From assembly GCF_900162665.1 (NCBI RefSeq), contig NZ_LT727813.1:68961-132960 (forward strand): a DNA stretch of 64,000 nt, written 5' to 3'. Source of the DNA: Oceanobacillus sojae (GTDB taxonomy: Bacteria > Bacillota > Bacilli > Bacillales > Amphibacillaceae). Made by a program: the position numbers and the translations under genes. The notes beneath the pieces are model-generated. The model did no database searches and was not told the DNA's origin. It saw only the letters and a list, made by a program, of their open reading frames with translations. Shown here piece after piece: positions 41,985 through 59,675 of this stretch (its first letter is position 1; each line of letters starts with the position of its first letter).

Positions 41985-41998
41985 TTATTCCCACTCAA
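41985..41998. other. Candidate attachment core (guaA 3'-end-like TTATTCCCACTCAA)
   Basis: Reverse complement reads CTT GAG TGG GAA TAA, the last codons (EWE-stop) typical of guaA, a known integration site of elements in Firmicutes. It is 80 bp from the integrase stop and next to arm repeats. The 11-mer ATTCCCACTCA recurs in the same orientation at 62844-62854. No guaA body is present in the window. Confidence 0.5.
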
Positions 41999-42078
41999 GT
42001 GTGCAGGTGACGCCGAAACATTGCTATATCAACGTTTATCACACCTTTAAATTGTATTGGCGGGGATTCTGGCGGAAC

Positions 42079-43287
42079 TTATTTTTTTACTGCTTGATTC
42101 CCATTAAATGATATACTTGATTTTTCCGCTGTTCGTATATTAATGTTACCTGTCATCTCTTCCGCAATTAGTTCATCTACACCTGACCACATATGTGAAT
42201 AATGCTTTAACGTAATTTCTGGACTCGAATGTCCCATACGCTTTGATAAAATCAAAACAGAAACATTAAATTCATTAATGAGATAAGACGCATGCGAATG
42301 TCGGAGTCCTTTAGCTTGAATACGATGAACATCTGCAAGTTTTGCATAACGTTGAATAATTCTAGCAAGCGTCGATTTAATCATTGGCGCTCCATCATAA
42401 CTAAAAATAAAATCGTCAATCCCTATTTTTGATTGTCGTTGTTTCCATTCTTGCAACACTTGTATCGTATCCTCATCCAAAGAGATGATCCGTTTACCAT
42501 CCTCTGTTTTTGTATAATCTTTTCGTTTCCAATTGCTTTTATTTATTAAATACAGTGAGTGATGAACGCGAAGCCGTTTGTTTTTAAAATCTATATCATC
42601 CCACCACAAGGCCGTTCCTTCACTAACCCGTATCCCCGTCATGAAATACGTCCACAACATCACAAAACATAAATGTTCATAAAAGTCATCCAGACAAATA
42701 ACCGAGATAACTTTTTCAAATTCTTTCTTTGTCCAATATGGGACAACCGCTTTTCCTTTAGGGATAGCCTTCACCTTTTTAGACACGTTCACTTCTAGAT
42801 ATTGCATATCAACTGCCATATCCAGACTTTTACGAAACATACCAAATACCAAACTTGCATATGCTTGGGAATATCCAGCTCCTTTATCAGAAAGTAACCA
42901 GGTTCGATAACGTTGGACATCTTCTACTGCTAAAGAACGAAGCTCAATGTTTGTAAAACGATCTCTCATACTTTCTAAAGTTCGTTTGCGAACGTAAAAA
43001 GTACTTTCTTCCACCTCGGTTTCATAAGCTGGAATGTACACAGTGTCCATGAATTGACCATATGTCATGTGATAATTTCCATAACCATTTGCTTGATGGT
43101 ATTCATTTTTCACCCGTACCAATTCTTTATAAGCTTGCAAAGCAGAAGTAAACTTTCTTCCTTGTTGGTTCGTACGTCCTTTTTTTCGGAGTCGTTTTCC
43201 AGTAATGCGATCCGTTCCTAACTCCGTTTCATAAAAATATTGACCATTGTTATCAATATAAACCCCTACATATTTGGTTTTAGCCAT
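42079..43287 (-). CDS. int: Tyrosine recombinase/integrase of a Tn916-like element
   Basis: This 402-aa phage-type integrase has an N-terminal AP2-like DNA-binding domain, a SAM-like core-binding domain (about residues 70-160) and a catalytic domain. The Arg is in TGIRVSEGTALWWDD near 217, HxxR in LRHSHASYLI near 325 and the terminal H..Y in MGHSSPEITLKHYSHMW near 350-362. It overlaps the xis-like gene by 8 bp. It is probably intact. Confidence 0.93.
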   Translation of the reverse strand: MAKTKYVGVYIDNNGQYFYETELGTDRITGKRLRKKGRTNQQGRKFTSALQAYKELVRVKNEYHQANGYGNYHMTYGQFMDTVYIPAYETEVEESTFYVRKRTLESMRDRFTNIELRSLAVEDVQRYRTWLLSDKGAGYSQAYASLVFGMFRKSLDMAVDMQYLEVNVSKKVKAIPKGKAVVPYWTKKEFEKVISVICLDDFYEHLCFVMLWTYFMTGIRVSEGTALWWDDIDFKNKRLRVHHSLYLINKSNWKRKDYTKTEDGKRIISLDEDTIQVLQEWKQRQSKIGIDDFIFSYDGAPMIKSTLARIIQRYAKLADVHRIQAKGLRHSHASYLINEFNVSVLILSKRMGHSSPEITLKHYSHMWSGVDELIAEEMTGNINIRTAEKSSISFNGNQAVKK

Positions 43288-43522
43288 GACTGTCTTCCTC
43301 CAATTCTAGTTCACAACCTAGAATCGATTCGACTGTCATTTTTGGTACACGCCCTAAGCGTTTATTATTATAAAATGGATACCCTTTTTGTACCATGATT
43401 TGTTTGGCTTGTCTAATAATTCGTATCGAAGTATATTTAGGATACCCAAGTTGAATTAAATCATCTTTTGTAATCAGTTCCTTCATTATATATACCTCCC
43501 TTTCACTAACAGAAGAATACAT
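43280..43522 (-). CDS. Excisionase-like small DNA-binding protein (DUF3173 type)
   Basis: This 80-aa frame has a likely start at MKELITKDDLIQLGYPKYTS (13th codon of the longest frame) with an AGGGAGG ribosome site. It has an HTH-like fold with LGRVPKMTVESILG and lies immediately upstream of int. This placement is typical of Xis/DUF3173 proteins in Tn916-like elements. It directs excision or regulates int. Confidence 0.8.
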   Translation of the reverse strand: MYSSVSEREVYIMKELITKDDLIQLGYPKYTSIRIIRQAKQIMVQKGYPFYNNKRLGRVPKMTVESILGCELELEEDSHG

Positions 43523-43539
43523 ACTAGAAACAACGATAA

Positions 43540-43810
43540 TTTAATACTATTAAAAAATCAGACGGCTGTTGGTGCAGCTCCACGGGAATTTCACCCCTGC
43601 AAGTATTTCTTCCAGCCCTACTCATAGTTTGCGACGCTTTGAACGCTCGAACCATGACGGTAGGGGAGTATCATTATCCTAACTAATGAGTTATCGCCAG
43701 CAATCCACCACGATTGCATTAGATTCATAGATTATCGCTCGTTTCTAACGAAAGTCGTGGCGTATGAATCAAGTGGCTCATCATCAGTAAAACGTATCTG
43801 ATTTTTTATT
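43540..43810 (-). ncRNA. Candidate structured RNA between xis-like and HTH genes
   Basis: This 270-bp gene-free stretch in the integrative module carries several nested stems: CCACGA/TCGTGG (43708-43713 and 43755-43760), GATTCATA/TATGAATC around it, CCCTAC/GTAGGG (43616-43621 and 43660-43665) and GCAG-GGG/CCC-CTGC (43574-43600). It is more GC-rich than its surroundings. On the minus strand it ends with CAGCCGTCTGATTTTTT, a terminator-like tail. I do not recognise an Rfam family. Strand and ends are inferred. Confidence 0.45.
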
Positions 43811-43895
43811 TATACTGCATGGCGTTATCTTCCATGCTTTCTTTGTCAAAGATCAAATTATGATTAATGAAAGGGAAAACCTAACCATTATTTCA

Positions 43896-44156
43896 TCAAA
43901 TCTTGAAAGCTAAAACAGATTGCATAAGCTTCGCTCGTAAGTGTTCGCGTGTATCTTCATCGATGCCCCAATAAGTATTTCCTTGTTCATCACGGAGCTT
44001 ACGCATAGATAAGCTTGTCATGTAGCTTCCATAATGCAAAACAACTACTTTCATTGCTTCTGGCTCACCCTTATTTGCAGCTAAAATAATTGGGTACGGC
44101 AATAAACCACGCTCGTTGTTTTCAATATTAGAATTAATCATCCCATTCATCTGCAT
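43896..44156 (-). CDS. Helix-turn-helix protein of Tn916-like element
   Basis: This 86-aa protein contains LLPYPIILAANKGEPEAMKV and VVLHYGSYMTSLSMRKLRDEQGN, matching the HTH_16 helix-turn-helix domain proteins paired with the Orf7-type sigma factor in Tn916 relatives. It overlaps the sigma-like gene by 23 bp. It probably controls element excision genes. Confidence 0.85.
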   Translation of the reverse strand: MQMNGMINSNIENNERGLLPYPIILAANKGEPEAMKVVVLHYGSYMTSLSMRKLRDEQGNTYWGIDEDTREHLRAKLMQSVLAFKI

Positions 44157-44571
44157 GTTCCTCCAAAAATCGCTTTAACCGTTCAAAAGAGCTTGTCCGC
44201 CTATACTGAACTGTACTACGTGGAATGTCGAGTAGTTGACCAATTTCCACATCAGACAGTTGAAAAAAATAGTATAGTAGGACAGTGATACGCTTTTCCT
44301 TTGGCAAGGTACGCATGGCTTCAGCAAGTAATTTCGGAGTGATTTTCTTTCCAGCCACTTGAAAACTTTGTCCTTCTTCTCCTTCATATTGCTTATCTAA
44401 GGTATAGAGTTGATTTTCTTCTTGTGGGGTGAGATCAGAAAATGTCATCTCCTTTGCTTGTCGTTGTTTTCTTTCATTAAAAATATTGATTGCTTCATTC
44501 TTCAACACACGTTTACAAAAAGCATTAAATGCACAGCGAACTTGCCATTCGGTACGATCTGGTTCTATCAT
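44134..44571 (-). CDS. Sigma-70-like regulator of integrative element (Tn916 Orf7 type)
   Basis: This protein is about 145 aa from MIEPDRTEWQVRCAFNAFCK; the longest frame begins 9 codons earlier, but GAGGATATGC just before this Met fits a ribosome site. It has a region 2-like N-part and a region 4-like HTH (MRTLPKEKRITVLLYYFFQL, SDVEIGQLLDIPRSTVQYRR). It is the first gene of the HTH/xis/int module. The conjugation genes of a full element are absent, so this is a truncated or mobilisable island. Confidence 0.82.
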   Translation of the reverse strand: MIEPDRTEWQVRCAFNAFCKRVLKNEAINIFNERKQRQAKEMTFSDLTPQEENQLYTLDKQYEGEEGQSFQVAGKKITPKLLAEAMRTLPKEKRITVLLYYFFQLSDVEIGQLLDIPRSTVQYRRTSSFERLKRFLEEHADEWDD

Positions 44572-44598
44572 GCATATCCTCTCCCTTCGCAACCGCAA

Positions 44599-44958
44599 AG
44601 GTGGGTGATGATTTCCCCTTTCATAACCTTCAACAAGATTTTTTATAAAATGCCAAAAATATCAGTGATCTTATTTTTTTAAAAAATATAAGGCCCAACT
44701 GATAATCAACCAGTTGGGCATAAAAATTGATATTTGTACTAGATGCTGTTTGTTGTGACATTAATGCTATAATGGTTTCATAATTATCCAAGATGTTTTT
44801 GATATATCGTAGCTTAAAAAAAGCAAAATTAATGTCCCCTTATGAAATCCTTTTTTAAAGGGAGAAACGGAGGTTTAGATTTTTTTAATCTCCATTTGAT
44901 AAATTCACTACATATAGTAAAGCCTTGTCCTCCTATATTACATACGATCATCAAACGC
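44599..44958. other. Intergenic region with one hairpin
   Basis: No gene is supported here. A strong hairpin GCCCAACTG/CAGTTGGGC (about 44693-44720) with an AT-rich flank on both sides could terminate transcription. Otherwise the stretch is AT-rich. Confidence 0.5.
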
Positions 44959-45534
44959 TTATCGCCAGCTTCGAATCGTTTCCAATATATTCTCTGTATA
45001 ACTCCCTGCCCACTTTACAATTCTTTCCGCCAAACGGGGTAACAATAACAATAAAATGATTCCTGCTATGCAAGCTACTATAGCACGTGGTAATGTATTA
45101 ATCGCAATCATCATCACGGTCATATCAAATAATCTATACAAATAAGGAGATAAAATCATAGCGATTGGCAGTAAATAACAGACAAAAGCAGCAATAAAAG
45201 TGAAGAAACCTAGAATAAATCTTGGAAAAATCATGATCCCCACAGTAAACCAATTTCTTTTGTCTGAAATTTCCTTTGTCAATTTATCTTGTGGATCCCA
45301 TTTTAAGCTAGGGATATTTATATGCGCATATTTTTCTGCTATTTTTCGATCCAAATCCAGAAAAAAAGGAATCGTCCGAAAAACTCCTGCTAAAATCGGA
45401 ATACCAACAACTGTAAAACTTACTCCAACGGAAAATGTTACGCTTATTAAATAAAAAGCGAAATATAAGAAGCCAATGAAAAACCAAAGGAACAAATACA
45501 GAAAGTTTTTAAAATTAAAGATAAGCATTTTCAT
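44959..45534 (-). CDS. Putative-sensor domain membrane protein (PF13796-like)
   Basis: This protein of about 191 aa begins MKMLIFNFKNFLYLFLWFFI; this start has an AAAGGTGG ribosome site, and the longer frame to 45591 is less likely. It has four or more hydrophobic segments, with SFTVVGIPILAGVFRTIPFF and LGFFTFIAAFVCYLLPIAMI. It resembles the putative sensor domain usually fused to or adjacent to DesK/LiaS-like histidine kinases. It is divergent from the kinase-regulator fusion gene, suggesting a shared signalling function. Confidence 0.7.
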   Translation of the reverse strand: MKMLIFNFKNFLYLFLWFFIGFLYFAFYLISVTFSVGVSFTVVGIPILAGVFRTIPFFLDLDRKIAEKYAHINIPSLKWDPQDKLTKEISDKRNWFTVGIMIFPRFILGFFTFIAAFVCYLLPIAMILSPYLYRLFDMTVMMIAINTLPRAIVACIAGIILLLLLPRLAERIVKWAGSYTENILETIRSWR

Positions 45535-45631
45535 ACAGAAAACCACCTTTTCTTTTAATAATGAAGTAGCATTAGATTCCTCACTGTCCAATACTTATTT
45601 CATTATCCATACTTCACGTCATAAGGCATAG

Positions 45632-45644
45632 TGACATTTTGTCA
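45632..45644. promoter_or_regulatory. Palindrome TGACATTTTGTCA in divergent promoter region
   Basis: TGACA/TGTCA arms with a 3-nt centre lie between the sensor gene and the kinase-regulator gene, and further TGAC-type half-sites follow (TCATGACTGA, AATGACTTG). It is a plausible binding site for the fused regulator's HTH. Confidence 0.4.
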
Positions 45645-45723
45645 TTTGTTTTCATGACTGATATTCATAATGACTTGTAGTAAAATAGTGATAGTCACAT
45701 CATTAAATAAGCGGGGTTCTCTT

Positions 45724-47532
45724 ATGTATGACATCATCAAAAAGTGGTACTGGTATGACTGGATGGTATTTGCTGTTCGCTCCATTTGGTTACTCTCTGT
45801 CCTAATCGGCTTGTGGGAATTTCATAATATTTTATCATTTCCGTTTTGGATTCTGTTTGGATTGCCCTTCATTGTCTTTTCAATTCCATTTTTAATTCAG
45901 CAATTTTTTAGAAAATACTTCATACTTACGGAGATCATCATTTCTGGAAGCTATTGCATTTTTTTGACATTCCTTCTTCATGATGCATTATGGCAGTTTA
46001 TCCCGATTGCTTTTGTGATAGGGTTTTACAGTATCCTAAGAGTCTATTTCTGGTCTGGCCCTTTAGCTATTGTGGTCATTCCCTTTATCATCGGGATTGT
46101 CACCGATCAAACTTTGGCCGACACCGTTCTTCGTTTAATGTCGAATTATGGTGTAGCGTTTGGACTCGGCTATGCTTTTCAATTACTTGTAACCAACCAT
46201 AAGCAAGGCTTAATCATACGAAAGCAAAACAGTGTGCTTGAACAATATGTACACCAGGTGGAGCAACTCACATTGTTGGAGGAACGGAATCGTTTATCAC
46301 GGGAATTACACGATACAGTCGGCCATACCTTTACAACGATGATCATGGGAATGGAGTCGATCCGTTCTTCATTGACGGATGAAAAGGCTAGACGTAAACT
46401 AAACGTTTTACTGAATGCGGCACATGACGGTTTAAAAGACATGCGAAAGCTTGTACATCAGTTGGAACCATCCGCAATGAATCTACCTCTTGTACAATAT
46501 GTAAAACAGTTAATTAACAAATTTATGGAAAGTACGGAAACCTCTGTTAAATTTCGATATTTTGGAGATGAATACAGCTTATCCAAGGAAGTTAAATTAA
46601 CAATCATTCGTTGCATTCAGGAAGCATTAACAAACGCTGTTAGACATGGGCGAGCAAGTGAAATCAAAGTATCTCTTTACTTCGACAGCTTGGAGCTCCG
46701 CTTGCAAGTTGAAGACAATGGTGTATTGGAACGGGAGAAAAAGATTGAGCTCGGTTTTGGCTTAAGTGCGATGAAAGAAAGATTGCAGGCCTTGCAAGGA
46801 AATTTATCCATACATACAGACAGTATGGAAGAAACAGTGATTATCTGCACCATTCCACGAAACAGCGAAGCTAATACCGAAACGATCAAGATAATCTTAG
46901 TAGATGATCAACCTGGCATTTTGGATGGGTTGAAGACAACTTTGGAGAGTCACAGTCAACTGCAAATTGTCGGTATAGCTGAATCTGGAGAGGATGCCTT
47001 ATCATTATGTAGCCTAAACCAGCCCGATATCGTGCTTATGGATGTAAATATGCCAAATATGAATGGAATAGAAGCCATGGAAGCGATAAAGGAAAAGAAT
47101 TCCCTGATCAAGGTTGTTATTCTTTCATCTTTTGAGAATATCGATCAAGCGGTAGAGGCACTACAAAAAGGAGCAAACGGGTATTTACTTAAGTCCATTC
47201 AATCGAAAGAGCTCATTGAAACCCTTCGTTTCATTCACCGTGGAGATACCATTATCTACCATGAAATTGCTAATCAGGTGTTTGAAAAATTGCAGGAGCA
47301 AAATGCTTCAGGTGGTAAACATGACAAAAATGATTATGGACTGACATCTAGAGAAATTGAAATTATTCGCTTTTTAGCCAAGGGTATGCGTTATAAGACC
47401 ATTGCAGCCAGACTTTACTTATCGGAGGGTACAGTTAGGAACTATGCGTCTGAAATGTACGCGAAACTTGGTGTAAGCAATCGTGACCAGGCTGTAGAAA
47501 AGTGTATAGAGAACGGATTGATCCCGAATTAA
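45724..47532 (+). CDS. Histidine kinase fused to NarL/LuxR-type response regulator
   Basis: This single 602-aa frame (from ATG 45724) combines a DesK/LiaS-like kinase and its regulator. Five or six N-terminal membrane helices (residues 10-160) are followed by a HisKA_3 box RLSRELHDTVGHTFTTM (His 196) and HATPase motifs EALTNAVRHG (Asn 304) and LGFGLSAMKERLQALQG near 345. A NarL-type receiver starts at IKIILVDDQPGILDG near 388 (acceptor Asp 440 in VLMDVNMPNMNG, Lys 490 in YLLKS). A LuxR HTH (LTSREIEIIRFLAKGMRYKT) lies near 540-595. The joint PRNSEANTETIKII looks like two genes merged in frame, with ACG where a regulator would have ATG. A membrane-tied DNA-binding regulator would be unusual. 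Confidence 0.9.
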   Translation: MYDIIKKWYWYDWMVFAVRSIWLLSVLIGLWEFHNILSFPFWILFGLPFIVFSIPFLIQQFFRKYFILTEIIISGSYCIFLTFLLHDALWQFIPIAFVIGFYSILRVYFWSGPLAIVVIPFIIGIVTDQTLADTVLRLMSNYGVAFGLGYAFQLLVTNHKQGLIIRKQNSVLEQYVHQVEQLTLLEERNRLSRELHDTVGHTFTTMIMGMESIRSSLTDEKARRKLNVLLNAAHDGLKDMRKLVHQLEPSAMNLPLVQYVKQLINKFMESTETSVKFRYFGDEYSLSKEVKLTIIRCIQEALTNAVRHGRASEIKVSLYFDSLELRLQVEDNGVLEREKKIELGFGLSAMKERLQALQGNLSIHTDSMEETVIICTIPRNSEANTETIKIILVDDQPGILDGLKTTLESHSQLQIVGIAESGEDALSLCSLNQPDIVLMDVNMPNMNGIEAMEAIKEKNSLIKVVILSSFENIDQAVEALQKGANGYLLKSIQSKELIETLRFIHRGDTIIYHEIANQVFEKLQEQNASGGKHDKNDYGLTSREIEIIRFLAKGMRYKTIAARLYLSEGTVRNYASEMYAKLGVSNRDQAVEKCIENGLIPN

Positions 47533-47534
47533 CT

Positions 47535-47785
47535 GACAGTAAGCCCCCCACTTCAAGAATTCGAGGTGAAAACGAGAATTGTAAGTGGGGGACAACTGCC
47601 AGTAAATACCCGATTGGTTCAGGCCTGCTGGACGAAGGTCACAAAGGCGTTGCGACGTACAGGACGTACTAGTGCGGGCGAAACGACAGGATGTCGTGCT
47701 TTGAGCCTGCCGACAGGATGTTGCGAATTTAGCCTTTGATCCTTACTATTCAGTGGGGGATGAAAAAAACCCCCACTGAATGAAG
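47535..47785. repeat. Composite hairpin element (REP/MITE-like)
   Basis: A GC-rich 250-bp island directly after the kinase-regulator stop contains ordered hairpins: CCCCCACTT/AAGTGGGGG (47545-47591), GTAC-AGGAC-GTAC (47657-47669), ACGACAGGATGTCGT (47683-47697), CGACAGGATGTTG (47711-47723) and a perfect TTCAGTGGGGG/CCCCCACTGAA (47749-47780). The last resembles a bidirectional terminator. I recall similar GACAGGATGT modules in other Bacillaceae, but no protein is encoded. It could be a non-autonomous element or an RNA. Confidence 0.6.
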
Positions 47786-47789
47786 TTTC

Positions 47790-48155
47790 ACTTTATATCT
47801 CATTGATCTCTTTCAGGATTTTGGTTAGATCGGGAGGAATATGGGAGTTTGTTATGTTCGTGGTCGATACGGTGGTAAAATTCCCCGAAAAAGTAGTCGA
47901 CGTATTAGCACGTAAATACAACAAAAGTAGATCATCAATTCACAGGGTCCGATCCGTTGGGAAACTCCTAAACGATCGGACAAGTAATGGAGAATGGACA
48001 AAGAAAGCACTAGCCAGAACAACCGGCCATTCAATCGATAAGCTATTTGTGCTGGCCTGCCCTCTTTCTTCAGAAGCCTCAGGCGTATTGATTCCCGCTT
48101 TTCCTCCGCCAATAATGGCGACCAGAGGCAATTTGCATGATCACATACGGATTTT
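47790..48155. other. Unassigned segment with overlapping ORFs
   Basis: ORFs of 60-120 codons run in several frames on both strands. None resembles a family, has a convincing ribosome site, or fits the composition of its neighbours. I cannot support a gene here. It may be further debris attached to the hairpin element. Confidence 0.4.
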
Positions 48156-48782
48156 TTATCGCTGTTGAAAAGCTACTTTTACACCAAGCCATATATAAAT
48201 CAAACCTGCAAATTTTCCACTCCATTGTCCAAGTTTGGCAGTTCTCTTCATCAAACGGCCAATGAGTCGAACACTGATAGCAATCAAGGTAGTGTAAAGA
48301 CAACTCATAATCACAAATATCAAACCTAGCAATAAGAATTGAACTATCGCAGTGCCCTTTTCAGGATGGACAAATTGAGGCAGAAAAGCTAAAAAGAAAA
48401 TAGCCGTTTTTGGATTCAATACCTCTGCCAAAACGGCTTGTCTGTATGATTGAAGGTTTGATGACTTTGAGACGGAAGGAAGGTCTTGTTTATTGGGCTT
48501 TTCTGCAATAGCTTTAAGCCCCATATAAATCAAATAAACTGCCCCAGCATATTTGACAAGGTTAAATGCAGCAGCTGAAGTCATCAAAATAGCAGACAGC
48601 CCCAAAACAGCAAACATTGTATGTATAAAATCACCTGTTGCAATACCTAGCCCTGTTAGAATCCCTGTTTTTCTACCTCCTCGTATGGTGCTGGACAAAG
48701 TTAAAAGTACCGCAGGACCGGGTACCAAAAATAAACCTAAAACCACCACAAAAAATGTTCCTAATGTTGAAAACTCTATCAT
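48156..48782 (-). CDS. LysE/RhtB family amino acid exporter
   Basis: This 208-aa protein has six hydrophobic helices. The family signature is near residue 18 (VLGLFLVPGPAVLLTLSSTIRGGRKTGILTGLGIATGD), with the mid-chain VLNPKTAIFFLAFLPQFV near 122. It exports amino acids or homoserine-lactone-like compounds across the cytoplasmic membrane. It is a single gene with an AGGAGCG ribosome site. Confidence 0.9.
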   Translation of the reverse strand: MIEFSTLGTFFVVVLGLFLVPGPAVLLTLSSTIRGGRKTGILTGLGIATGDFIHTMFAVLGLSAILMTSAAAFNLVKYAGAVYLIYMGLKAIAEKPNKQDLPSVSKSSNLQSYRQAVLAEVLNPKTAIFFLAFLPQFVHPEKGTAIVQFLLLGLIFVIMSCLYTTLIAISVRLIGRLMKRTAKLGQWSGKFAGLIYIWLGVKVAFQQR

Positions 48783-48919
48783 ATAAATATCGCTCCTTTT
48801 ACTAGAATACTCGTCACTTTAGTTATATCGCTATTATTTTCCCTGTATAGAGTTAGCAGGAAACAATCATCAGAATTGACGATACTCATATGAAACCTCA
48901 TCCCCCATTCCATTTTGGT

Positions 48920-49405
48920 CTAAATTCGCCAAAGAACGAAGACGAATAGTGCTGATGAGGCTAAACTTGAAATGGTCCGAACATGGTTCCATGCTGTCCA
49001 TTTTAAATAGTAATCTTTCCATAGCTCCAAACTTTCTGCATCTGTAGCTCTTATATTGGCTAATGCATCATTTAGTGGGACATTACATACCGCCGTAACC
49101 AGCAAGCTTCCCAGAAGATAAAACAAACTACCAGCTAATATATAAATGGCATTCGGTTCTTGCCAATTGAATAATGAAATAATCACAAGCAGGATACAAA
49201 CAAGAGATGTCCCCATAAACACTGTAAAGAATAGTCGATTTAGCACAACATTATTTATGGACTGCATAGCCGAAATTCCCTGCTCTGGAGGGAGCCGGTA
49301 GAGAGCCTTCATGACAAATGCCGAAAATGCAAAGAATAATCCTGCAATCAGCCCAGATCCCAATAATGCAGTAAAAATTAGAATAAGAAAGAGGTTTTCG
49401 ATCAT
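48920..49405 (-). CDS. DUF1772/anthrone-oxygenase-like membrane protein
   Basis: This 161-aa protein has four helices. The C-terminal half has NVPLNDALANIRATDAES and WKDYYLKWTAWNHVRTISSL, the hallmark of DUF1772 proteins. Function is unknown. Its start overlaps the preceding small gene by 4 bp, so both are in one unit downstream of an ABC transporter operon. Confidence 0.8.
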   Translation of the reverse strand: MIENLFLILIFTALLGSGLIAGLFFAFSAFVMKALYRLPPEQGISAMQSINNVVLNRLFFTVFMGTSLVCILLVIISLFNWQEPNAIYILAGSLFYLLGSLLVTAVCNVPLNDALANIRATDAESLELWKDYYLKWTAWNHVRTISSLASSALFVFVLWRI

Positions 49406-49794
49406 ATTTCATCTTCCCTTTGTGCGTTTTCTCTTAGATTGATTGAAGGGTAATTCCTCATCATTTCGTGAACCAATTGTCTAGGGTTTTCACTTTCAAA
49501 TACAACATGATCAAACTCACAACCCTTCAATTGAAGCATGACGACTTCATTTTGGTTATGATAGGCTAAAAAGTATTTCTCATCTTCAATCATGAATATT
49601 CCAGCTTTATAGCCAGATGTTGTGATACCAGTTCTCTTAATAGCCGCAGTCCATGGAAAATGAAATTTCCCCACCCGAATTTCTTCAATGGAGGTGTAAG
49701 GTATTTTGATCTCCTTCCTCAAAGTTAAAGCCGCTGTCCATCCCGAAATATTCAGTCGTAACTCACGATCACCTGCCACAACTTGAAAACCCAT
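49402..49794 (-). CDS. Hypothetical protein (PH-like fold suspected)
   Basis: This protein of about 130 aa starts MGFQVVAGDRELRLNISGWT; this internal start is preferred because of its AGGGGATAC site. It is rich in beta strands, with IKIPYTSIEEIRVGKF and YFLAYHNQNEVVMLQLKG, similar in pattern to bacterial PH-like domains. It has no signal or membrane helix. It lies between an ABC permease gene and a DUF1772 gene. Confidence 0.6.
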   Translation of the reverse strand: MGFQVVAGDRELRLNISGWTAALTLRKEIKIPYTSIEEIRVGKFHFPWTAAIKRTGITTSGYKAGIFMIEDEKYFLAYHNQNEVVMLQLKGCEFDHVVFESENPRQLVHEMMRNYPSINLRENAQREDEI

Positions 49795-49863
49795 CTTGTA
49801 TCCCCTCCAATTTATACAGCCAATCATCTATGGTTTATTTAACCAGTGACCCGATGAAGGAAA

Positions 49864-50649
49864 TCACATAGAAGGCAATTCCTTTCGGGATAAATACGAT
49901 GTTGCAAATATTAAGCAGAAAACAATGAGTAATACAGATACCGTCATGGTGATGAAAAAGTGCGGTAACACATTCCCTGACGTTATGATGCTAACAGCTT
50001 GATTTGATAAATGTGCTGGATTTAGGATTTGAAATCCTCCCTCCAACAATGTAATAGTTTTCAAAAAGATTAGAACAAAAATAGACAACAATGCAATGGC
50101 CGGTGTTCTAGACAATAAAGCGCCGATTGCGATTACGAAGGTCAACATAAACAGACACCAAATGTAATAAACCCCCAGCCCAGCTGCTATCCTGGCCACG
50201 GAAACAGCTTGATATAGATAAAAAGTATAAAATACTGCTGTCAGAAATCCGAGGAATATGGAACCTGCAATCATGACAGCATGCCCTACTAACTTACTTA
50301 GCAAATATTCAACAAGTGTCGTGTTGCGCGTCAGAATAAACGCTAACATGCCATTATTTTTATCTGATGCAATGATGCCCATCGTTGCCATGACAATCAC
50401 GATTAAGCCCAATTGGTCAAATTGATCGGTTAAGGCACTAGCTAATACTTCACTAGCCGTTAACTCAGGTAATGTGATCGTTATTCCATCAGGCAGTCCA
50501 CCAGCCATTTTTAAAATTTCTGGTAAATAAAAAGACGATAAAGGTTGGAGAATGCCCAAAAACATAAAAACGACAGGCAACCATAATAATTTATAGCTTC
50601 TTTTTGCATCAAGCCACTCTTTCTGCAACAGAACTGTGAAACGATTCAT
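49864..50649 (-). CDS. ABC-2 type transporter permease
   Basis: This 261-aa protein has an N-terminal cytosolic stretch (NRFTVLLQKEWLDAKRSYKL) and six membrane helices. It matches ABC-2 permeases of the CcmB/NosY/YhaP-like class. It overlaps its ATPase gene by 4 bp. The operon order is HTH regulator, PLDc_N protein, ATPase, permease, which resembles regulated bacitracin/lantibiotic-type or stress exporters. The substrate is unknown. Confidence 0.85.
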   Translation of the reverse strand: MNRFTVLLQKEWLDAKRSYKLLWLPVVFMFLGILQPLSSFYLPEILKMAGGLPDGITITLPELTASEVLASALTDQFDQLGLIVIVMATMGIIASDKNNGMLAFILTRNTTLVEYLLSKLVGHAVMIAGSIFLGFLTAVFYTFYLYQAVSVARIAAGLGVYYIWCLFMLTFVIAIGALLSRTPAIALLSIFVLIFLKTITLLEGGFQILNPAHLSNQAVSIITSGNVLPHFFITMTVSVLLIVFCLIFATSYLSRKELPSM

Positions 50650-51551
50650 GATGACTTCACCATCCTTAAGAAGATCTCTTCTAGGCTTTCTTGCACTAAT
50701 TCAAACTTTTGAATTGGGAGCTGTGCTTTTAAAATATGGCTTAACAGCCAATCTCTTCCCTGTTCGATATTTTTAACTCGTACTTTGGCAGCATTTCCTG
50801 TTAACTCAATAGATTCAATAAGGTCTTCATTCATAAGTTGGTGTGTCCACTCGCTTAATCGAGGTGCCTGAATGATAAAGATTGGTTTTTGAGTCTGTTC
50901 AATAATTTGATGAATGGATCCGTTAACAAGTAATTGTCCTTTGTTGATGATCAGCATCTTATCACAAAGTTCTTCGGCATCATGCAAAATATGTGTTGAA
51001 AAAAGAATCGTCGATTTCTGTTTGATCACTTTAAGCAATTCCAATATATCCCTGCGTCCTAATGGATCCAATGCAGAAACTGGTTCGTCCATAATCAGTA
51101 ATTTTGGTTGATGGATAAGTGCCTGTGCAATACCTAACCTTTGCTTCATCCCTCCCGAATAGGTACCAATAAGCTGATTTTCTACCTCACTCAGTCCAAC
51201 CAACTTCAGCAATTCGTTGATCCTTTCTTCCAAAATATCCCTTTCTATATTTGAAAGTCCGCCCATAAATATAAGCAATTCTCTTCCCGTCATCCATGGA
51301 TAAAAAGTAGGGTGTTGTGGTAAATACCCAATAAATTTACGCATTTGGTCATGGCGTTTTCCGTTAAGCAAGATTTTTCCGCCTGTAAGTTTGTTTATAT
51401 CTAGTATCATTTTAATGATCGTTGTTTTACCTGCTCCGTTCGGACCGAGAAGAGCCACACATTCTCCTTGATTAATATGAAAATCAACATTTTGAACAAC
51501 TTCATGATTTCCGTACTTTTTTTGGAGTTGACTTACTTGAAGTAGGTGCAT
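50646..51551 (-). CDS. ABC transporter ATP-binding protein
   Basis: This protein of about 301 aa starts MHLLQVSQLQKKYGNHEVVQ, chosen over a start 15 codons upstream that would overlap the previous gene further. Walker A GPNGAGKTT lies near residue 40, signature YSGGMKQRLGIAQALI near 133, Walker B KLLIMDEPVSALDP near 155 and H-loop STHIL near 188. A C-terminal regulatory tail follows. It pairs with the ABC-2 permease downstream. Confidence 0.9.
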   Translation of the reverse strand: MHLLQVSQLQKKYGNHEVVQNVDFHINQGECVALLGPNGAGKTTIIKMILDINKLTGGKILLNGKRHDQMRKFIGYLPQHPTFYPWMTGRELLIFMGGLSNIERDILEERINELLKLVGLSEVENQLIGTYSGGMKQRLGIAQALIHQPKLLIMDEPVSALDPLGRRDILELLKVIKQKSTILFSTHILHDAEELCDKMLIINKGQLLVNGSIHQIIEQTQKPIFIIQAPRLSEWTHQLMNEDLIESIELTGNAAKVRVKNIEQGRDWLLSHILKAQLPIQKFELVQESLEEIFLRMVKSS

Positions 51552-51774
51552 CTGAGCGTTGCCTCCTTCCCAAGACAAAATATAAAATGGGACCAATGAT
51601 GTTAACCAGTATAATCACAGCACCCCAAAGCCATTTATAATCCGTACTTTGATCTCTTTTTAATAAATCCACTAATGCCACAGAAAATAAGATCAGATGT
51701 AGGATTAAGATAGGCAAAAGTAATGGTAACCAAGCTCCAATTTCATCAATTTCAATGTGATACCCATAATGCAT
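51502..51774 (-). CDS. PLDc_N domain small membrane protein
   Basis: This 90-aa protein has two helices (LPLLLPILILHLILFSVALV and WLWGAVIILVNIIGPILYFV). It matches the phospholipase-D-nuclease N-terminal (PLDc_N) domain, with the typical W-x(n)-NxxGPxxYFxxGR end. Such proteins often sit next to ABC transporters. Its 3' end overlaps the ATPase gene by about 50 bp. Confidence 0.82.
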   Translation of the reverse strand: MHYGYHIEIDEIGAWLPLLLPILILHLILFSVALVDLLKRDQSTDYKWLWGAVIILVNIIGPILYFVLGRRQRSDAPTSSKSTPKKVRKS

Positions 51775-51786
51775 CTGTTGTCCCCC

Positions 51787-52329
51787 TTACTCTTTTGGTG
51801 GTTTTTGTGGAATAAACATACTCCCAAAAATTCGCGTGGTTCGTTCAGGTGTTAATTTGTTGTTGAACACCTTCTCAATCTCCTGTTGAATGGACTGAGT
51901 AAGCTCCTGGAATTCCTCATCTGACAAATGCAAAGGTACATACGCATAGCTAAACCCTTCTTGTTCATACTGTTCAGGGGACGTATTCGCCAAATAAGAC
52001 GTTGCTAATTGAAGTAAATTACCGTGAAATACGGAAAAATGACGGATATGATCTTCCTGTGAGATCGTTTCAATTTCGCCTTCAGGAATTTGCAAGTTAT
52101 CCATTTTGACTGAGAATTTACGCTCCTCTGTTCCTTTCACCTTTTTTGTTTCAATCACTTCAATTAAATTTGCCTCAAGTAAAAGATTGATATGCCGATA
52201 TAGCGTAGCTTGAGGAACATCTCCAAGTATCTCCACAAGTTGAGCGATCGTCAGTGGTTTGTTTAGCAACAATTGCTGTACAATTCGCATCCGCACGGGA
52301 TGAAGAAGTAAATCAGCATTTCCTTTCAT
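51787..52329 (-). CDS. ArsR-like helix-turn-helix regulator of ABC operon
   Basis: This 180-aa protein has a wHTH of the HTH_20 type (residues 5-75; LLHPVRMRIVQQLLLNKPLT, LVEILGDVPQATLYRHINLL). A C-terminal helical domain follows, as found in YdfF/YxaD-like regulators that precede ABC exporters. There are no Cys metal sites. It is the first gene of a four-gene operon with the PLDc_N, ATPase and permease genes. Confidence 0.85.
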   Translation of the reverse strand: MKGNADLLLHPVRMRIVQQLLLNKPLTIAQLVEILGDVPQATLYRHINLLLEANLIEVIETKKVKGTEERKFSVKMDNLQIPEGEIETISQEDHIRHFSVFHGNLLQLATSYLANTSPEQYEQEGFSYAYVPLHLSDEEFQELTQSIQQEIEKVFNNKLTPERTTRIFGSMFIPQKPPKE

Positions 52330-52432
52330 TGGATTACCTCCATATCATTATCATTTTATAAAACGATAATGTAAAAAAACAAGATTGTCAACTATAGCTC
52401 TAAAGGTTTGACCACTACGCCCACTATTCTTC

Positions 52433-52460
52433 TTCAACAATCTTTTGATTGTTGAAGGTT
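52433..52460. terminator. Hairpin, possible terminator
   Basis: CTTCAACAATC and GATTGTTGAAG form a perfect 11-bp stem with a TTTT loop between the P-loop kinase gene and the HTH gene. The T run is weak, so it may instead be an operator. Confidence 0.5.
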
Positions 52461-52512
52461 ATTGTATTTTCTGTGTTTAAGATACACTCATTTGTCCTAT
52501 TAAGATTACTTT

Positions 52513-53046
52513 TCATATTGACTCTATAACTACTTCCCCTTCGCAAGAAGGCACTTCAAATCCGTTTAAGTAAGAAGTTAAAGCATCTTCCGTGATAGGA
52601 AAAGCTGCATTTGCATCAAATCTTTTACTCCGTATATCCAACCGTTTGCGAATAATTTCAGGACTAACTTTCAAATAAATAAGTCTCCACTCACCACCAG
52701 CTTTTTCAATTAGCTGTTTGTATCCATCTCGTTTGGCTTTTTGCCAAAAACTGAAATCAATCACAACCTTTCGTTTATCCTGAATCAGACGTATCAATTG
52801 ATTTTGAAGCCTTCTTTCAGCTTCAACTTGATAATCGCCATATTTCTCAGCAGGATAGTCTATTCCATAACGTCCATTAACCTTCCAAATCTCTTCATCA
52901 ATCGAAAGACGTACAAACCCTTCTGTTTCCAAGCGTTGTGCGAATGTCGTCTTCCCTGAACCCGCTACACCACACATCATAATAATTAATGGATTTGAAG
53001 TTATTTGTCTTAATATGTCCTTTATATTTTCTTCAAAATTCGACAA
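52513..53046 (-). CDS. P-loop kinase/AAA_33-like ATPase
   Basis: A protein of about 177 aa, if started at TTG (53046) behind an AGGAGTG site; the longest frame opens 33 codons earlier at GTG. Walker A is GVAGSGKTTFAQRLETEG, followed by RLSIDEEIWK and a lid region with RLDIRSKRFDANAAFPITED. It resembles the zeta/Cpt-like small-molecule kinases of the AAA_33 family, often resistance-related. The substrate is unknown. Confidence 0.75.
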   Translation of the reverse strand: MSNFEENIKDILRQITSNPLIIMMCGVAGSGKTTFAQRLETEGFVRLSIDEEIWKVNGRYGIDYPAEKYGDYQVEAERRLQNQLIRLIQDKRKVVIDFSFWQKAKRDGYKQLIEKAGGEWRLIYLKVSPEIIRKRLDIRSKRFDANAAFPITEDALTSYLNGFEVPSCEGEVVIESI

Positions 53047-53220
53047 TACTATCACTCCTAATAATTTCACCTTTTCTTCTATATAATCAGGTTCTTGTTC
53101 CTCTAAAGGATCAAAATCAATATTCGGATGACTATATGCTTTCACAAGTCCGTCATCTTTTAATCTATAAAAGGTTGTTTCTTTTTTATCTTCTTTATCA
53201 TGAACATTACTGAAATCCTC
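53047..53220 (-). other. Acidic coding-like extension upstream of kinase
   Basis: The kinase frame stays open upstream and reads TTFYRLKDDGLVKAYSHPNI then DFDPLEEQEPDYIEEKVKLL. The pattern is like the C-terminal half of S24/LexA-type peptidases, so this may be a relic of such a gene fused in frame. It could also be a genuine N-terminal domain. Evidence is thin. Confidence 0.3.
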
Positions 53221-53260
53221 CCATTAGTTATTATTAAATAGTTTGTTCTCACGATTTAGA

Positions 53261-54460
53261 TCATGTTGATATAAGGGATCTATGTTTCCATGTTAAAAGC
53301 ACTGTACCAGCCAAAAAGGCTAATACTCCTATTACATAAGGGAAATAAGTGTTAATATCAAATAAAATTCCTCCTAATATAGGCCCTACTACACTTCCTA
53401 GGCTTACATATGCATTGTTCATACCCGCAATAAATCCTTGCTCATTATTAGCTAATTTGGATAGTACTGTATTGATAACTGGACGCAGAATGGAAGTTGC
53501 TGTATATAGTAAACAAGTCAGCAATAAGATACTCCAAATGCGTGTGGTGAACAAGAGAAATAAAAAACTAACCCCACCAGCTATCATTGTTCCGTTCATA
53601 ACCTTCGATTCACCAAAGAGGGAAACCAGTTTATTCGTTAATAACAGTTGCACCATAACACTTACAAATGCTGCAATTGTAATTACCATTGCAATATCCT
53701 TTGCCGTATAGCCGAATTGTTTGTCAACAAACAGTCCAAAAATTGCTTCAAAAATGTATAAAGATACACTATAGAGAAATACCAAAAGCAACGGAACAAC
53801 GTAAGGTACCCGAATGGAGCGCAATATTTGCTGTACCATTGGTTGGGGTGAAACGATGTCCGCTTTCGTCATCTCCGTCTTTTTTTCTAACGTTTCAGGA
53901 AGTAAAAAAAAGGACAGTAAAAAGGAAACAAAAGATAAAACAGTTGCAAAATAAAAAGGTACATATAAACCATACGTTGTTAGAAAACCTCCAATTCCAG
54001 GCCCTATGACAAAACCAAATGATATGGAAGCATTAAGGAAACTTAGCCCCTTAGCACGTTCTTCCTCTGTCGTTATATCAATAATACATGCCATAGCACC
54101 GGGAATTAAAAGTGATACTGCAATACCTGTTAAAAACCTCCCTAAAAAAAGCAACCAAAAATGAACTGAAAAAGCAAAGACTAATTGAGATAAAGTAAGA
54201 CAAATTAAACCAATCTCTATAATTCTTTTTCGACCATAGCGATCAGCAAAACGTCCAGCAATTGGAGATAAAAAAAGCTGAATAATACCGTATGTAGCTA
54301 CTAGTAATCCCATCATTTGTCCGTTTGTATTAAATTTTCCCATAAAGTCGGGCAATATCGGGATAATTAACCCAAATGCAGCCGTAGCGATAAATACACA
54401 AACCATTAAAAGAAAAAGTGTTTTTATTTTACTAGGTTTAGATAGCAAATCATCATTCAC
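53261..54460 (-). CDS. MFS drug-efflux transporter (DHA1, NorA-like)
   Basis: This 399-aa protein has 12 predicted helices. Motif A is GRFADRYGRKRIIEIGL near residue 63 and motif C is the FVIGPGIGGFL region near 150. It resembles NorA/Bmr-type multidrug transporters. It stands alone without an obvious regulator and appears intact. Confidence 0.88.
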   Translation of the reverse strand: MNDDLLSKPSKIKTLFLLMVCVFIATAAFGLIIPILPDFMGKFNTNGQMMGLLVATYGIIQLFLSPIAGRFADRYGRKRIIEIGLICLTLSQLVFAFSVHFWLLFLGRFLTGIAVSLLIPGAMACIIDITTEEERAKGLSFLNASISFGFVIGPGIGGFLTTYGLYVPFYFATVLSFVSFLLSFFLLPETLEKKTEMTKADIVSPQPMVQQILRSIRVPYVVPLLLVFLYSVSLYIFEAIFGLFVDKQFGYTAKDIAMVITIAAFVSVMVQLLLTNKLVSLFGESKVMNGTMIAGGVSFLFLLFTTRIWSILLLTCLLYTATSILRPVINTVLSKLANNEQGFIAGMNNAYVSLGSVVGPILGGILFDINTYFPYVIGVLAFLAGTVLLTWKHRSLIST

Positions 54461-54574
54461 CTCTTTTTCTAGATGTTAAACTGTAGTGTTAATAAAGTGT
54501 AAAATTCAAAGGAAACCTTCAAAATATGAGCTTCCATTATTCTTGTCAAAATAACACCCTCCGCTAGAATAAAA

Positions 54575-55078
54575 TTAAATTTTTAAAACCATTAAATCTT
54601 CGTCAAAATACTTCCCGTTATCTTTTAAAGCATTCTTTTCTACTCCGTAATTTTGGAATCCTATGGATCTGTATAGATTCTTCGCAGGCTCATTATTGGA
54701 TATCACTGTTAAATTAATTTGTTCCAAGCCGATGCAATCTTTTGCCTTTTTTAACAGTTCAAGCAAGAGCAACTTCCCTAATCCTTGTCCTCGCATTTCT
54801 GGCTTCACAAACATTCCGAAAACATTCCCTTTGTGAGCAGTTTTAAGACTACTTTCACGCACAAAAGTCACAATTCCCACTAATAAATTTCTATCCTCAA
54901 AAGCACCCAAGACAAATTTGTTATCGTTTAGTTTTAATCGTTCTGCTACAGTTTCAAGAGTGAACTTAGCCTCTCTCTCATAAGTTGAGCCAAATGCTTC
55001 AGGGTTGATTTTTAATGCACTTAAACGTAATTCTTGGTATAATTGAGCATCAGACTCATTTAAAATTCGAATAGTCAT
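54575..55078 (-). CDS. GNAT family N-acetyltransferase
   Basis: This protein of about 167 aa starts MTIRILNESDAQLYQELRLS; this start is supported by GAGGAG seven bases upstream. Motif A reads VFGMFVKPEMRGQGLGKLLL near residue 88, and motif B NNEPAKNLYRSIGFQNYGVE near 135. It uses acetyl-CoA as donor. The acceptor is unknown. Confidence 0.88.
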   Translation of the reverse strand: MTIRILNESDAQLYQELRLSALKINPEAFGSTYEREAKFTLETVAERLKLNDNKFVLGAFEDRNLLVGIVTFVRESSLKTAHKGNVFGMFVKPEMRGQGLGKLLLLELLKKAKDCIGLEQINLTVISNNEPAKNLYRSIGFQNYGVEKNALKDNGKYFDEDLMVLKI

Positions 55079-55330
55079 TAGCTTCTCCTCATTTCTTTTT
55101 CTCCACTTAATAATCATATTACTTCTTAAACTGGTATAGATGCTATTTCAAATACTAAAGTGGACCCCAATGTCAAGACAATACTTTTTTAAATAATAAG
55201 GTAGGTTAATAGATTGTGTCTTTACCTTTTCACGGTTAAAGCGAGTACTTGCCTCACTGAAAATGGGAACCACTTTTTCGATGTTAGAGCCAGCCTCAGC
55301 GACAGCTGCTTGCCGTTGACCGCCGCGCCC

Positions 55331-55386
55331 GATTCTTAGCAGGCGATATAAGGGGGGCGGGGCCCCGCCAGCGAATGCTTAGAATC
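55331..55386. repeat. GC-rich palindrome element
   Basis: GATTCTTAGCA (55331-55341) and TGCTTAGAATC (55376-55386) bracket the perfect 14-bp palindrome GGCGGGGCCCCGCC (55356-55369). Surrounding bases 55240-55330 are unusually GC-rich for this genome. The 55079-55510 gap holds no supported gene. It could be an IS end, replication-related relic or structured RNA. Confidence 0.55.
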
Positions 55387-55510
55387 GATTTGTCCGTGTT
55401 ACAATTTAAAGCAGAATCAGCCCCTTCAGGCTATTTTTTGGGTATCCTGCGTGGGCTCAATGAACACGGGCAAAAGCAAGGTCAATGGTGGTGGACAACC
55501 GGCAATCCAC

Positions 55511-55790
55511 CTACCCGAAATAAATAGATGCTGGTGTTTTATAGTTTAATGACTGATGGGGACGTTCGTGATTGTAAAAATCTATATAGTCCCTTATATT
55601 TTTCCTTGTTTCCCTTGGAGTCTCGTATTCTTTTAAGCAAACCTCCTCGTACTTTATGTTTCGCCAAAAACGTTTGATAATAATATTATCTAGTGCACGC
55701 CCCTTTCCATCCATGCTGATTTGAATATTCTTTTCATTTAACCAATATTTTAGACTAGTAAAATGGCTTATTTTAATGTTTTTGTGCCAT
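55511..55790 (-). pseudogene. IS3-family transposase (OrfB) 3' fragment
   Basis: The minus frame reads SHFTSLKYWLNEKNIQISMD, GKGRALDNIIIKRFW and IDFYNHERPHQSLNYKTPAS. This is the last third of the rve integrase core. The catalytic Glu expected in DNxxIERFW reads Lys, and the two Asp motifs are absent. It abuts the 3' end of an ABC permease gene. Confidence 0.85.
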
Positions 55791-56984
55791 TTGAATAACA
55801 TCTTTAAATTTCACTTTTCCGCTGTAATTCATGACGCCGTTCACGTAAATTCTACTTGCCAAGTGGTTAATGATTGCAATGCTAGCTAGAAGAATGACGA
55901 TGGTAATGCCCATCTCCGCATAGCCCGCTTCGCCGGATACGATTCTTGAAAATGTCACAATCGGTGATGTAATTGGGATATAGGAGCTAACAACAACAAG
56001 TGTTGATACAGAGTTAAAGATGGAGCTTATTCCGATAAAAAAAGCAACCATGATGCACATAATAATCGGGAAAGAAACTGAACTTAAGTCTTCCGTTCGG
56101 CTTACGACAGCACCGACTGCTGCATATCCAATCGCATATAATAGATAGCCGAGAATAAAATAAATGATAAAGGAAGCAACCACGATTCCGGTTAAATTGC
56201 TTAGATCAATATCAAAGCCGAAAAATGAAAATTGTTTCCCATCAATCCAACCTAAGGAGTAACTTGCAAGAAAGCCTAGAAGCATGATAACAATTTGCAC
56301 TAGTCCCGTGACTAACTGTACAAGAATTTTTCCATACATCATATAGATTGGCTTTACTTTCGGTATCATGATTTCCATAACACGTGATGCCTTTTCGGCA
56401 GTAATGGTATTTGCAATCATTTGACCTTGACCGAGGATTAACAAATACATTAGGATAACAAAAATATAAACGATCCCCACTGTTCCAGTCGTATCTTTTA
56501 ATGCTTTGTTTTCTACTGAAACGGGTGTTACCAGTTTAGCCGCAACCTCCGGGTTAACGTTCGAATCCGCAATTGTTTTATTGATCCCTACTTGTTGGAT
56601 TTTTTGAGTTAGGATGGACACTAGCTCTTGATCAGCAAAAGATTTATACGTGTACGTCAATGCGGGTAAACCGTTCTTTTCTTTCATTTCGATAATGCCA
56701 TCGAGCTCCCCGTCTCTAACTTGTTTCTTTAATTGCGCCATATCGCCTTCTTCTTGTAAAAACAGTTTTACCGAGTTCAGGCCTTTATTTAGCTGATCGA
56801 TATTTGTTTTGTAGGACGTTGGATTAATGAATGCGACTTCATCCTTTGACCCGTTCGACGAAAAATGACTAAAGCCAAAAATCCCAAGTACAATTACAAT
56901 TGTAATTAGATTACCGAAGATAAATGACTTCGAAGTCAATCCGTCTTTCAAATGAAACTTAAAAACGGTCATAAATTTCCCCAT
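55773..56984 (-). CDS. ABC-2 permease (NatB-like Na+/drug export type)
   Basis: This 403-aa protein has an N-terminal helix (SFIFGNLITIVIVLGIFGFS), a large extracytoplasmic part (residues 45-170) and five C-terminal helices, a layout typical of NatB/YhfN-like ABC-2 permeases. The adjacent IS3 fragment begins within its last codons, so the extreme C-terminus might be altered. It follows its ATPase gene by 1 bp. Confidence 0.85.
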   Translation of the reverse strand: MGKFMTVFKFHLKDGLTSKSFIFGNLITIVIVLGIFGFSHFSSNGSKDEVAFINPTSYKTNIDQLNKGLNSVKLFLQEEGDMAQLKKQVRDGELDGIIEMKEKNGLPALTYTYKSFADQELVSILTQKIQQVGINKTIADSNVNPEVAAKLVTPVSVENKALKDTTGTVGIVYIFVILMYLLILGQGQMIANTITAEKASRVMEIMIPKVKPIYMMYGKILVQLVTGLVQIVIMLLGFLASYSLGWIDGKQFSFFGFDIDLSNLTGIVVASFIIYFILGYLLYAIGYAAVGAVVSRTEDLSSVSFPIIMCIMVAFFIGISSIFNSVSTLVVVSSYIPITSPIVTFSRIVSGEAGYAEMGITIVILLASIAIINHLASRIYVNGVMNYSGKVKFKDVIQMAQKH

Positions 56985-56985
56985 A

Positions 56986-57870: not shown

Positions 57871-57949
57871 ACATTGCACCTCTATTCTATTAATATTTTT
57901 TCTGATAATAAAAAGCTGCTTTCACAACTTCTCATGCATCACATTTTCG

Positions 57950-58175
57950 TCATGAGTTCTGCTGAGCGATCTGAATAAAATTGCCGCATGTATCGTCGAA
58001 GACAGCTATTGTAACTTCCCCCATTTCTGGCGGTTCCATGGTAAACTTCACTCTAAGTTTCACTAATCGTTCGTTCTCTTTTTGAACATCTTGAACTCCA
58101 AATATCGTTGCTGGAATGCCTTCAGCATACATCTTCTTTTGATACTCTTTCGCAGCTGAATAATAAATTGCAATG
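57950..58175 (-). pseudogene. Glyoxalase/VOC family 3' remnant
   Basis: The minus strand reads SAAKEYQKKMYAEGIPATIF and on through KFTMEPPEMGEVTIAVFDDT then CGNFIQIAQQ. This is the second half of a VOC-fold protein. The first half is missing or unreadable and frames shift near 58140. Confidence 0.75.
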
Positions 58176-58231
58176 CGGATTTCATACTTTTGGAGAGTTT
58201 GATTACATGTTTGTTTTCATGTAAATTAAAA

Positions 58232-58828: not shown

Positions 58829-58835
58829 TTTAACT

Positions 58836-59585: not shown

Positions 59586-59675
59586 TAAAATCCCCCCATA
59601 AAATTCAAGTTTATTAACATTTTATCTTTGAATGAACATTTAGTCAATAGAAAAAACTATTTACTTTCAAGATAA

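Follow-up and report, generated by a model that had tools for sequence, protein, structure and literature searches.

A single gene in the window, by which we mean the whole 64-kb stretch of Oceanobacillus sojae DNA analysed here, encodes a membrane-bound sensor kinase and a LuxR-type response regulator as one chain, and comparison with its homologues indicates that this fused family is old and stable and forms one clade. We consider it quite probable that the protein is a membrane-anchored single-chain regulator built of DesK/NarL-type parts, which would transfer a phosphoryl group to its own receiver, bind an operator and switch on both divergent promoters (Table 1).

A further in-frame ATG at 45670 would lengthen the protein by 18 aa; 45724 is the likelier start because the region upstream of it contains stops in two near copies of the gene, L010 and L011. 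Pfam analysis of the product gave four matches above the curated cut-offs, namely HisKA_3 (residues 187-250, E 4.2e-16), HATPase_c (residues 293-379, E 2.5e-9), Response_reg (residues 390-501, E 2.5e-29) and GerE (residues 540-591, E 1.2e-14), with no domain ahead of residue 187 and no AraC match anywhere in the fused protein. H196, N304, D394/D395, D440 and K490 are all present. The frame, the Pfam matches and the residue check thus bear out the original prediction of one 602-aa chain that joins a membrane part, a HisKA_3 kinase, a receiver and an HTH with intact catalytic residues. The AlphaFold2 model, whose input alignment covered 55 of the 79 full-length family members, reached a mean pLDDT of 81, and the packing of the domains was not resolved (pTM 0.36). 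It contains six membrane-length helices starting at residues 10, 41, 63, 86, 108 and 131 and connected by short loops, the sixth of which continues into the kinase helix bearing H196 as one long helix (131-214), so that the end of the membrane-spanning segment within it is an estimate. Neither Pfam nor the model revealed an extracytoplasmic domain. The final strand of the kinase stops at residue 378 and the initial strand of the receiver starts at 388, and residues 381-385 of the joint between them have pLDDT values below 50. Downstream of the gene lies a non-coding block (47540-47780) with CCCCCACT-type inverted ends, as read by eye; in several copies of the locus it is missing or other sequence stands in its place.

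Table 1 Features of the fused locus in the window (strand "." where none applies)
Feature	Coordinates	Strand	Remarks
Fused sensor kinase-response regulator gene	45724..47532	+	one stop-free ORF, 602 aa
Membrane part, residues 10-155	45751..46188	+	AlphaFold2 secondary structure, hydropathy
HisKA_3 (DHp) domain	46282..46473	+	phospho-acceptor H196 at 46309-46311
HATPase_c (CA) domain	46600..46860	+	Pfam
Joint, residues 379-387	46858..46884	+	low model confidence; length nearly constant across the family
Receiver domain	46891..47226	+	phospho-acceptor D440 at 47041-47043
GerE/LuxR-type DNA-binding domain	47341..47496	+	Pfam
Operator (predicted)	45617..45659	.	CGTCA-N10-TGACA-N3-TGTCA-N10-TGACT; from conserved upstream motif
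Probable -10 box of fused gene, TAAAAT	45681..45686	+	kept in seven near copies, one base change in L009; putative role
Probable -10 box of sensor gene, GATAAT	45602..45607	-	kept in seven near copies; putative role
PF13796 "Sensor" membrane protein, divergent partner	44959..45591	-	Pfam E 7.5e-20
Integrase-borne mobile element carrying the fused locus	41986..59690	.	~17.7 kb; ends approximate

The fusion had been taken to be recent, on the grounds that the codon at the joint (46882-46884, immediately left of 46885) is ACG where a separate regulator would have ATG. A contig search returned eight loci at 80-92% identity to the gene of the window and 30 further loci at 26-43%. The near copies come from Bacillus, Lederbergia, Oceanobacillus, Lentibacillus and Paenibacillus records; counting the window, and taking L045 and L012, which lie on the same contig, as one, they number nine distinct genes that are mutually at least 78% identical and 600-603 aa long, and the comparison of orthologous loci that had been proposed found the fused rather than the two-gene form in 9/9. 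The joint ACG is kept in most of them and replaced by ACA or GCC in the others, so it is not a freshly lost ATG, and the Paenibacillus copy L011 has one additional codon right at the joint with the frame kept. Among the near copies, the domains have dN/dS values of 0.10-0.14, the joint has one of 0.22 and the receiver-HTH linker one of 0.37, and we conclude from these codon comparisons that all parts of the fused gene are under purifying selection. In the Lentibacillus populi copy (L010:5001-6806), which is otherwise conserved, arginine replaces the phospho-acceptor histidine. Moreover, homologues down to about 30% identity are fused and fall in one clade, and the claim of a recent fusion, together with that of ACG as the trace of the regulator's lost start, is not upheld.

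The fused form is widespread in another bacterial family, in which 64 of 295 genomes yielded 80 fused matches at E 1e-80 or better (the best four candidates or fewer scored per genome, and up to four matches in one genome), 77 of them without an internal stop. No secondary split of the fused gene inside the clade was found among the 80 matches listed at that threshold. Among 58 genomes of relatives, including the window's own, a stop-free match covering both halves occurred, among the matches listed, only in the window's genome and in one congener. In an even sample of 398 genomes of the phylum, such matches came from the window's own genome, from two members of that other family (45% identity) and, as long fused proteins of another branch, from G077, G139, G347 and G432. 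For the comparison of surroundings, 82 family loci were used, of which 73 were taken from the 80 matches and the rest are the near-copy loci and the window; a stop or a short frame was seen in L166, L192, L199, L202 and L186. The family alignment comprised 79 full-length members, with the short L186, L192 and L202 left out. In this alignment H196 is kept in 75/79 members, N304 in 75/79, D394 in 77/79, D395 in 73/79, D440 in 77/79 and K490 in 79/79, and the HTH residues checked are kept in most to nearly all members. One member that is 66% identical to the window's copy (L131:7001-8779) has GE in its receiver instead of the acidic DD.

The joint itself is nearly constant in length and variable in sequence across the 79 members. 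The distance from I377 to D394 is 17 residues in 66/79, the window included, 18 residues in 8/79 and 16, 20 or 22 residues in the remaining 5/79, which amounts to a length constancy of 0.84 versus 0.87 for the loops inside the kinase; the receiver-HTH linker is spread over many lengths, the commonest being found in 13/79 (0.16). Such a fixed length in a stretch whose sequence is free to vary may reflect a geometric constraint on the joint.

A tree built from the kinase and regulator parts (LG+G4 model, a quick method with a short search) took in 50 of the 79 fused members, 61 rows from two-gene systems and five other fused proteins; in it, all 50 sampled fused members, the window's among them, lay on one side of a branch with a support of 96. 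The sister rows to this clade are two-gene pairs of one genome, G037, in which the genes for kinase and regulator overlap, sharing 8 bases in one case and 32 in the other; L052 and L208 denote the same two-gene pair. A small indel that joined such overlapping genes, with the inner start lost as well, could account for the fused form. The claim on origin is limited by the choice of the two-gene rows, which are best hits to the fused protein. The other fused HisKA_3-REC-GerE proteins, L014 from an Anaerolineae record and L204-L207 from the phylum sample, have open frames of 805-1070 aa; they sit elsewhere in the tree, outside the clade, and fusion therefore probably happened at least twice.

The original prediction also pointed to a palindrome shared by the divergent genes. 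A perfect TGACATTTTGTCA indeed lies between them at 45632-45644 and is part of a conserved 43-bp operator composed of two tandem 20-bp inverted repeats three bases apart, with four TGTCA/TGACA half-sites over which the window's operator scores 18/20. Taken alone, the palindrome is no more frequent than chance: with one mismatch allowed, the TGACATTTTGTCA pattern occurs twice in the 64-kb window versus a shuffle mean of 2.04. The lone 13-bp palindrome was accordingly rejected as evidence, and only the full operator stands. The second arm motif, TCATGACTGATATTC, is found elsewhere in the window only at chance level. Alignment of seven near copies showed that the intergenic region is conserved as a block. 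The last half-site of the operator adjoins the -35 position of the fused gene, and the -35 position of the sensor gene falls within the first inverted repeat; given the conserved -10 boxes, one inverted repeat probably lies at each -35 position.

Across the family, the 8-mer ATATGACA or its complement was present in 16/41 representative upstream regions, whereas in 50 rough shuffles the count of no 8-mer exceeded 8. A strict three-half-site pattern was found in 23/82 family upstream regions, 9 of which belong to the near-copy loci, and 100 shuffled sets contained none; a four-half-site score of at least 16/20 was reached by 30/82 upstream regions versus 4/410 random segments of the same loci, the other 52/82 regions scoring lower; these counts are to be read with the motif having been drawn from part of the same upstream regions. 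A search of whole loci, to which the same reservation applies, gave 41 sites in 40/82 family loci and none, under the patterns used, in the other 42. All sites but two lie between or just before fused, Sensor, ABC, CAAX-protease-like, serine-hydrolase or erythromycin-esterase genes; the two, in L165 and L192, are not tied to a family target. The operator patterns matched nowhere in the 270,091 bases of 61 two-gene loci, which were taken with short flanks.

At the genome level, the pattern GTCATA-N6-AGTKAC-N5-GTCA had 27 matches in the 295 genomes and its reversed control had 0. Matches occurred in 23 genomes, every one of which belongs to the 64 that carry a fused member (Fisher p 1.4e-17), and none of the 231 genomes without a fused match has the pattern. 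Fourteen matches lie directly before a fused gene, five before Sensor or serine-hydrolase genes in a fused locus and eight elsewhere; independent support for the operator comes from the 231 fused-less genomes without the pattern and from the 13/27 matches that are not directly before a fused gene. Four of the eight matches elsewhere precede a PF00144 serine hydrolase and three an amidohydrolase, all seven enzymes having been tested with Pfam, and the eighth, which is not in promoter position, adjoins a fused-family receiver-HTH remnant (L250:8042-8458) in a genome that also has intact members. Among 28 genomes of the window's genus, the pattern occurs only in the two that carry the fused gene, once in each. 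For a 15-base piece of the operator, the window's genome contains a single exact match, which is that of the fused locus; with up to two mismatches allowed, the same piece has 18 matches versus 8 for the reversed pattern.

The divergent partner matches PF13796, as had been predicted for a putative-sensor membrane protein; by reading, its likelier start is an ATG with a ribosome-binding-like site at 45534. A PF13796-like Sensor gene adjoins the fused gene in 36/82 loci and lies two genes off in one more, and its placement varies among upstream on the same strand, downstream and divergent. PF00144 serine hydrolases, some of which carry S-layer domains, are near the fused gene in 28 loci (within two genes in 27), CAAX-protease-like proteins (PF02517) in 14 and erythromycin-esterase proteins (PF05139) in 7, and in 13 loci a divergent ABC ATPase, followed by an ABC-2 permease, adjoins the fused gene; the Pfam tests of the neighbours covered one to three members of each group. 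A small protein beside the ABC genes was considered as DUF4097 and dropped, since the one tested had no Pfam match. A divergent ABC ATPase/ABC-2 pair of this kind is also present at the two-gene sister L208, and no operator was found there under the patterns used. On a Priestia megaterium plasmid, a fused homologue with 43% identity stands in a row with sensor-domain, erythromycin-esterase, serine-hydrolase, penicillin-binding and class A beta-lactamase genes, and operator-like stretches (16/20) precede the sensor gene and lie between two serine-hydrolase genes. Because in relatives the operator also precedes neighbouring or unlinked serine-hydrolase, amidohydrolase, ABC-2, CAAX-protease-like and erythromycin-esterase-like genes, the fused family likely takes part in a response to antimicrobials or envelope stress.

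The fused locus of the window is carried by a mobile element with an integrase gene (PF00589, 42079-43287) just inside its left end. The region from 41986 to about 59690 is common to B. norwichensis and Bacillus sp. SD088 at 92-98% DNA identity, in gapped pieces with sharp ends, and the element is also shared by Oceanobacillus neutriphilus. Among the products that it encodes are ABC-2 permeases, two ABC ATPases whose C-terminal domains are DrrA-like, an MFS transporter, a LysE exporter and an ArsR-type regulator. In comparison with the O. neutriphilus copy (L012), 129 of the 134 mismatches over 42100-52400 fall at 46048-47490, inside the fused gene, which indicates that the kinase core and nearly all of the regulator were exchanged together; this looks like homologous recombination, in the window's copy or in the other lineage. 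Rfam also identified a pemK RNA (RF02913, 43580-43677, minus strand) near the integrase gene and an rli38 RNA (RF01470, 41844-41999, minus strand) spanning the left end of the element. Just to its right, at 60305-62523, an IS21-like pair of an ATPase and a transposase-like ORF was read from translations.

In the mechanism that we propose, a signal in or at the membrane would set the state of the kinase, probably through the six-helix part with the PF13796 Sensor as a partner. H196 would then be phosphorylated and pass the phosphoryl group to D440 of the attached receiver, and the GerE domains of a dimer would bind the 43-bp operator and switch on both divergent promoters, that of the Sensor gene and that of the fused gene itself. 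The sequences themselves show the fusion with its age and stability, the conserved residues, the constancy of the joint, and the operator with its tie to the family; the phosphotransfer, the DNA binding, the direction of regulation and the signal are what we infer. Several observations fit this anchored regulator poorly: the phospho-acceptor histidine is lost in L010 and the acidic pair in L131, some members and the two-gene sister L208 are without a visible operator, and the window's other efflux (ABC/MFS) genes carry none at a score of at least 15/20.

Other readings of the locus were weighed against these data. That most related kinases and regulators elsewhere are encoded by two genes (61 of the 66 loci examined, which are best hits rather than random picks and include a few duplicates) could point to a recent accident or a sequencing error in the fused frame, but the nine distinct near copies from several genera, the 77 stop-free distant homologues and the in-frame one-codon change of L011 refute this reading, to which we give practically no chance. 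The gene might instead yield a second product besides the full chain, namely a regulator on its own that is translated from an internal start close to the joint, as some members have an in-frame ATG, GTG or TTG there and a few a weak ribosome-binding-like stretch. An ATG within ten codons before D394 is, however, found in only 7/79 members, and the window has no start codon near the joint, its nearest in-frame starts being 22 and 26 codons upstream of D394 and within the last strands of the kinase, where the test used found no ribosome-binding-like site. Across the 79 members, neither a conserved start codon nor a ribosome-binding-like site was found at the joint, and synonymous divergence is not clearly lower over codons 351-390 (0.36-0.64) than gene-wide (0.24-1.1). 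The search by sequence for internal initiation near 46880, which had been suggested as a check, thus turned up neither a conserved start codon nor a clear synonymous drop, and we regard a second product as quite improbable.

Many hybrid kinases act via other proteins, and the fused protein could likewise be an ordinary hybrid kinase that feeds a phosphorelay with another regulator while its own HTH is idle. This is hard to reconcile with HTH residues kept in nearly all of the 79 members and with an operator pattern confined, among the 295 genomes searched, to those with a fused member, so that we judge it very improbable. A protease might instead free the receiver-HTH part on signal, making the active regulator soluble. 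Such a regulator would easily reach the operator matches before unlinked genes in several genomes, and the low model confidence of residues 381-385 of the joint also speaks for this reading; against it, the variable sequence of the joint displays no conserved cleavage motif, and intact hybrids of Bacteroides, presumably tethered, have been reported as bound to DNA at several loci (PMC3404733). Release by proteolysis is therefore unlikely in our view, although less so than the other alternatives, and the anchored single-chain regulator is preferred.

In a sequence search among solved structures, the kinase core (residues 169-381) was nearest to DesK (E 5.4e-18), and the regulator half matched NarL, VraR, DevR and DesR over nearly its whole length. 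The fused protein shares HisKA_3/NarL-type domains and catalytic residues with DesK-DesR of Bacillus subtilis and with VraR, NarL, LiaS and LnrJK. Pairs of the DesK-DesR type consist of two proteins, whereas the protein of the window is a single chain whose joint is fixed, and it comes with an operator of its own and a neighbouring PF13796 protein. The proteins L014 and L204-L207 also combine kinase and regulator in one chain but are longer and lie outside the clade. Like the fused protein, the Bacteroides hybrid systems (HTCS) have a kinase, a receiver and a DNA-binding domain in one membrane protein. The HTCS sensor is periplasmic and large, in contrast to the fused protein, in which no extracytoplasmic domain was found and whose host is Gram-positive. 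HTCS are described with a periplasmic domain and bind DNA as intact, presumably membrane-tethered proteins, with an AraC-type output where the fused protein has GerE (PMC3404733). The membrane-bound DNA-binding output, which had been proposed as a distinct signalling mode, is thus already known in principle. An ABC exporter likewise accompanies LnrJK (PMC7472640), and Paenibacillus vortex has been reported with 10 hybrid kinases (PMC3012674). The P. megaterium homologue bears the NCBI name "hybrid sensor histidine kinase/response regulator transcription factor", in a record that mentions no operator, partner or family, and the literature searched for this architecture, which covered few subscription texts, contained no description of the fused family. 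Our best reading is that the fused protein works like the Bacteroides hybrid systems and is built from DesK/NarL-type parts.

An earlier study concluded that the presence of membrane and DNA-binding domains, whose required sites in the cell differ, determines whether a kinase and its receiver occur as one protein or as two (Cock and Whitworth, via PMC3018481). The fused clade holds both in one chain and has kept both, and sensing, phosphate relay and DNA binding, which usually need two proteins, are apparently united in one membrane protein. It is possible, at somewhat short of an even chance, that this is a large and old Gram-positive tethered family in which intact dimers, one per repeat, reach unlinked defence genes from the membrane, the module is mobile, and kinase and regulator are swapped as one allele; the same tentative reading adds a fixed four-half-site operator with one inverted repeat for each divergent promoter. 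With the operator, the partner, the two-gene sister and the unlinked sites, one can test directly in a Gram-positive host how a regulator bound to the membrane reaches its DNA, and the family offers a clean natural case of a kinase and a regulator moving as one unit.
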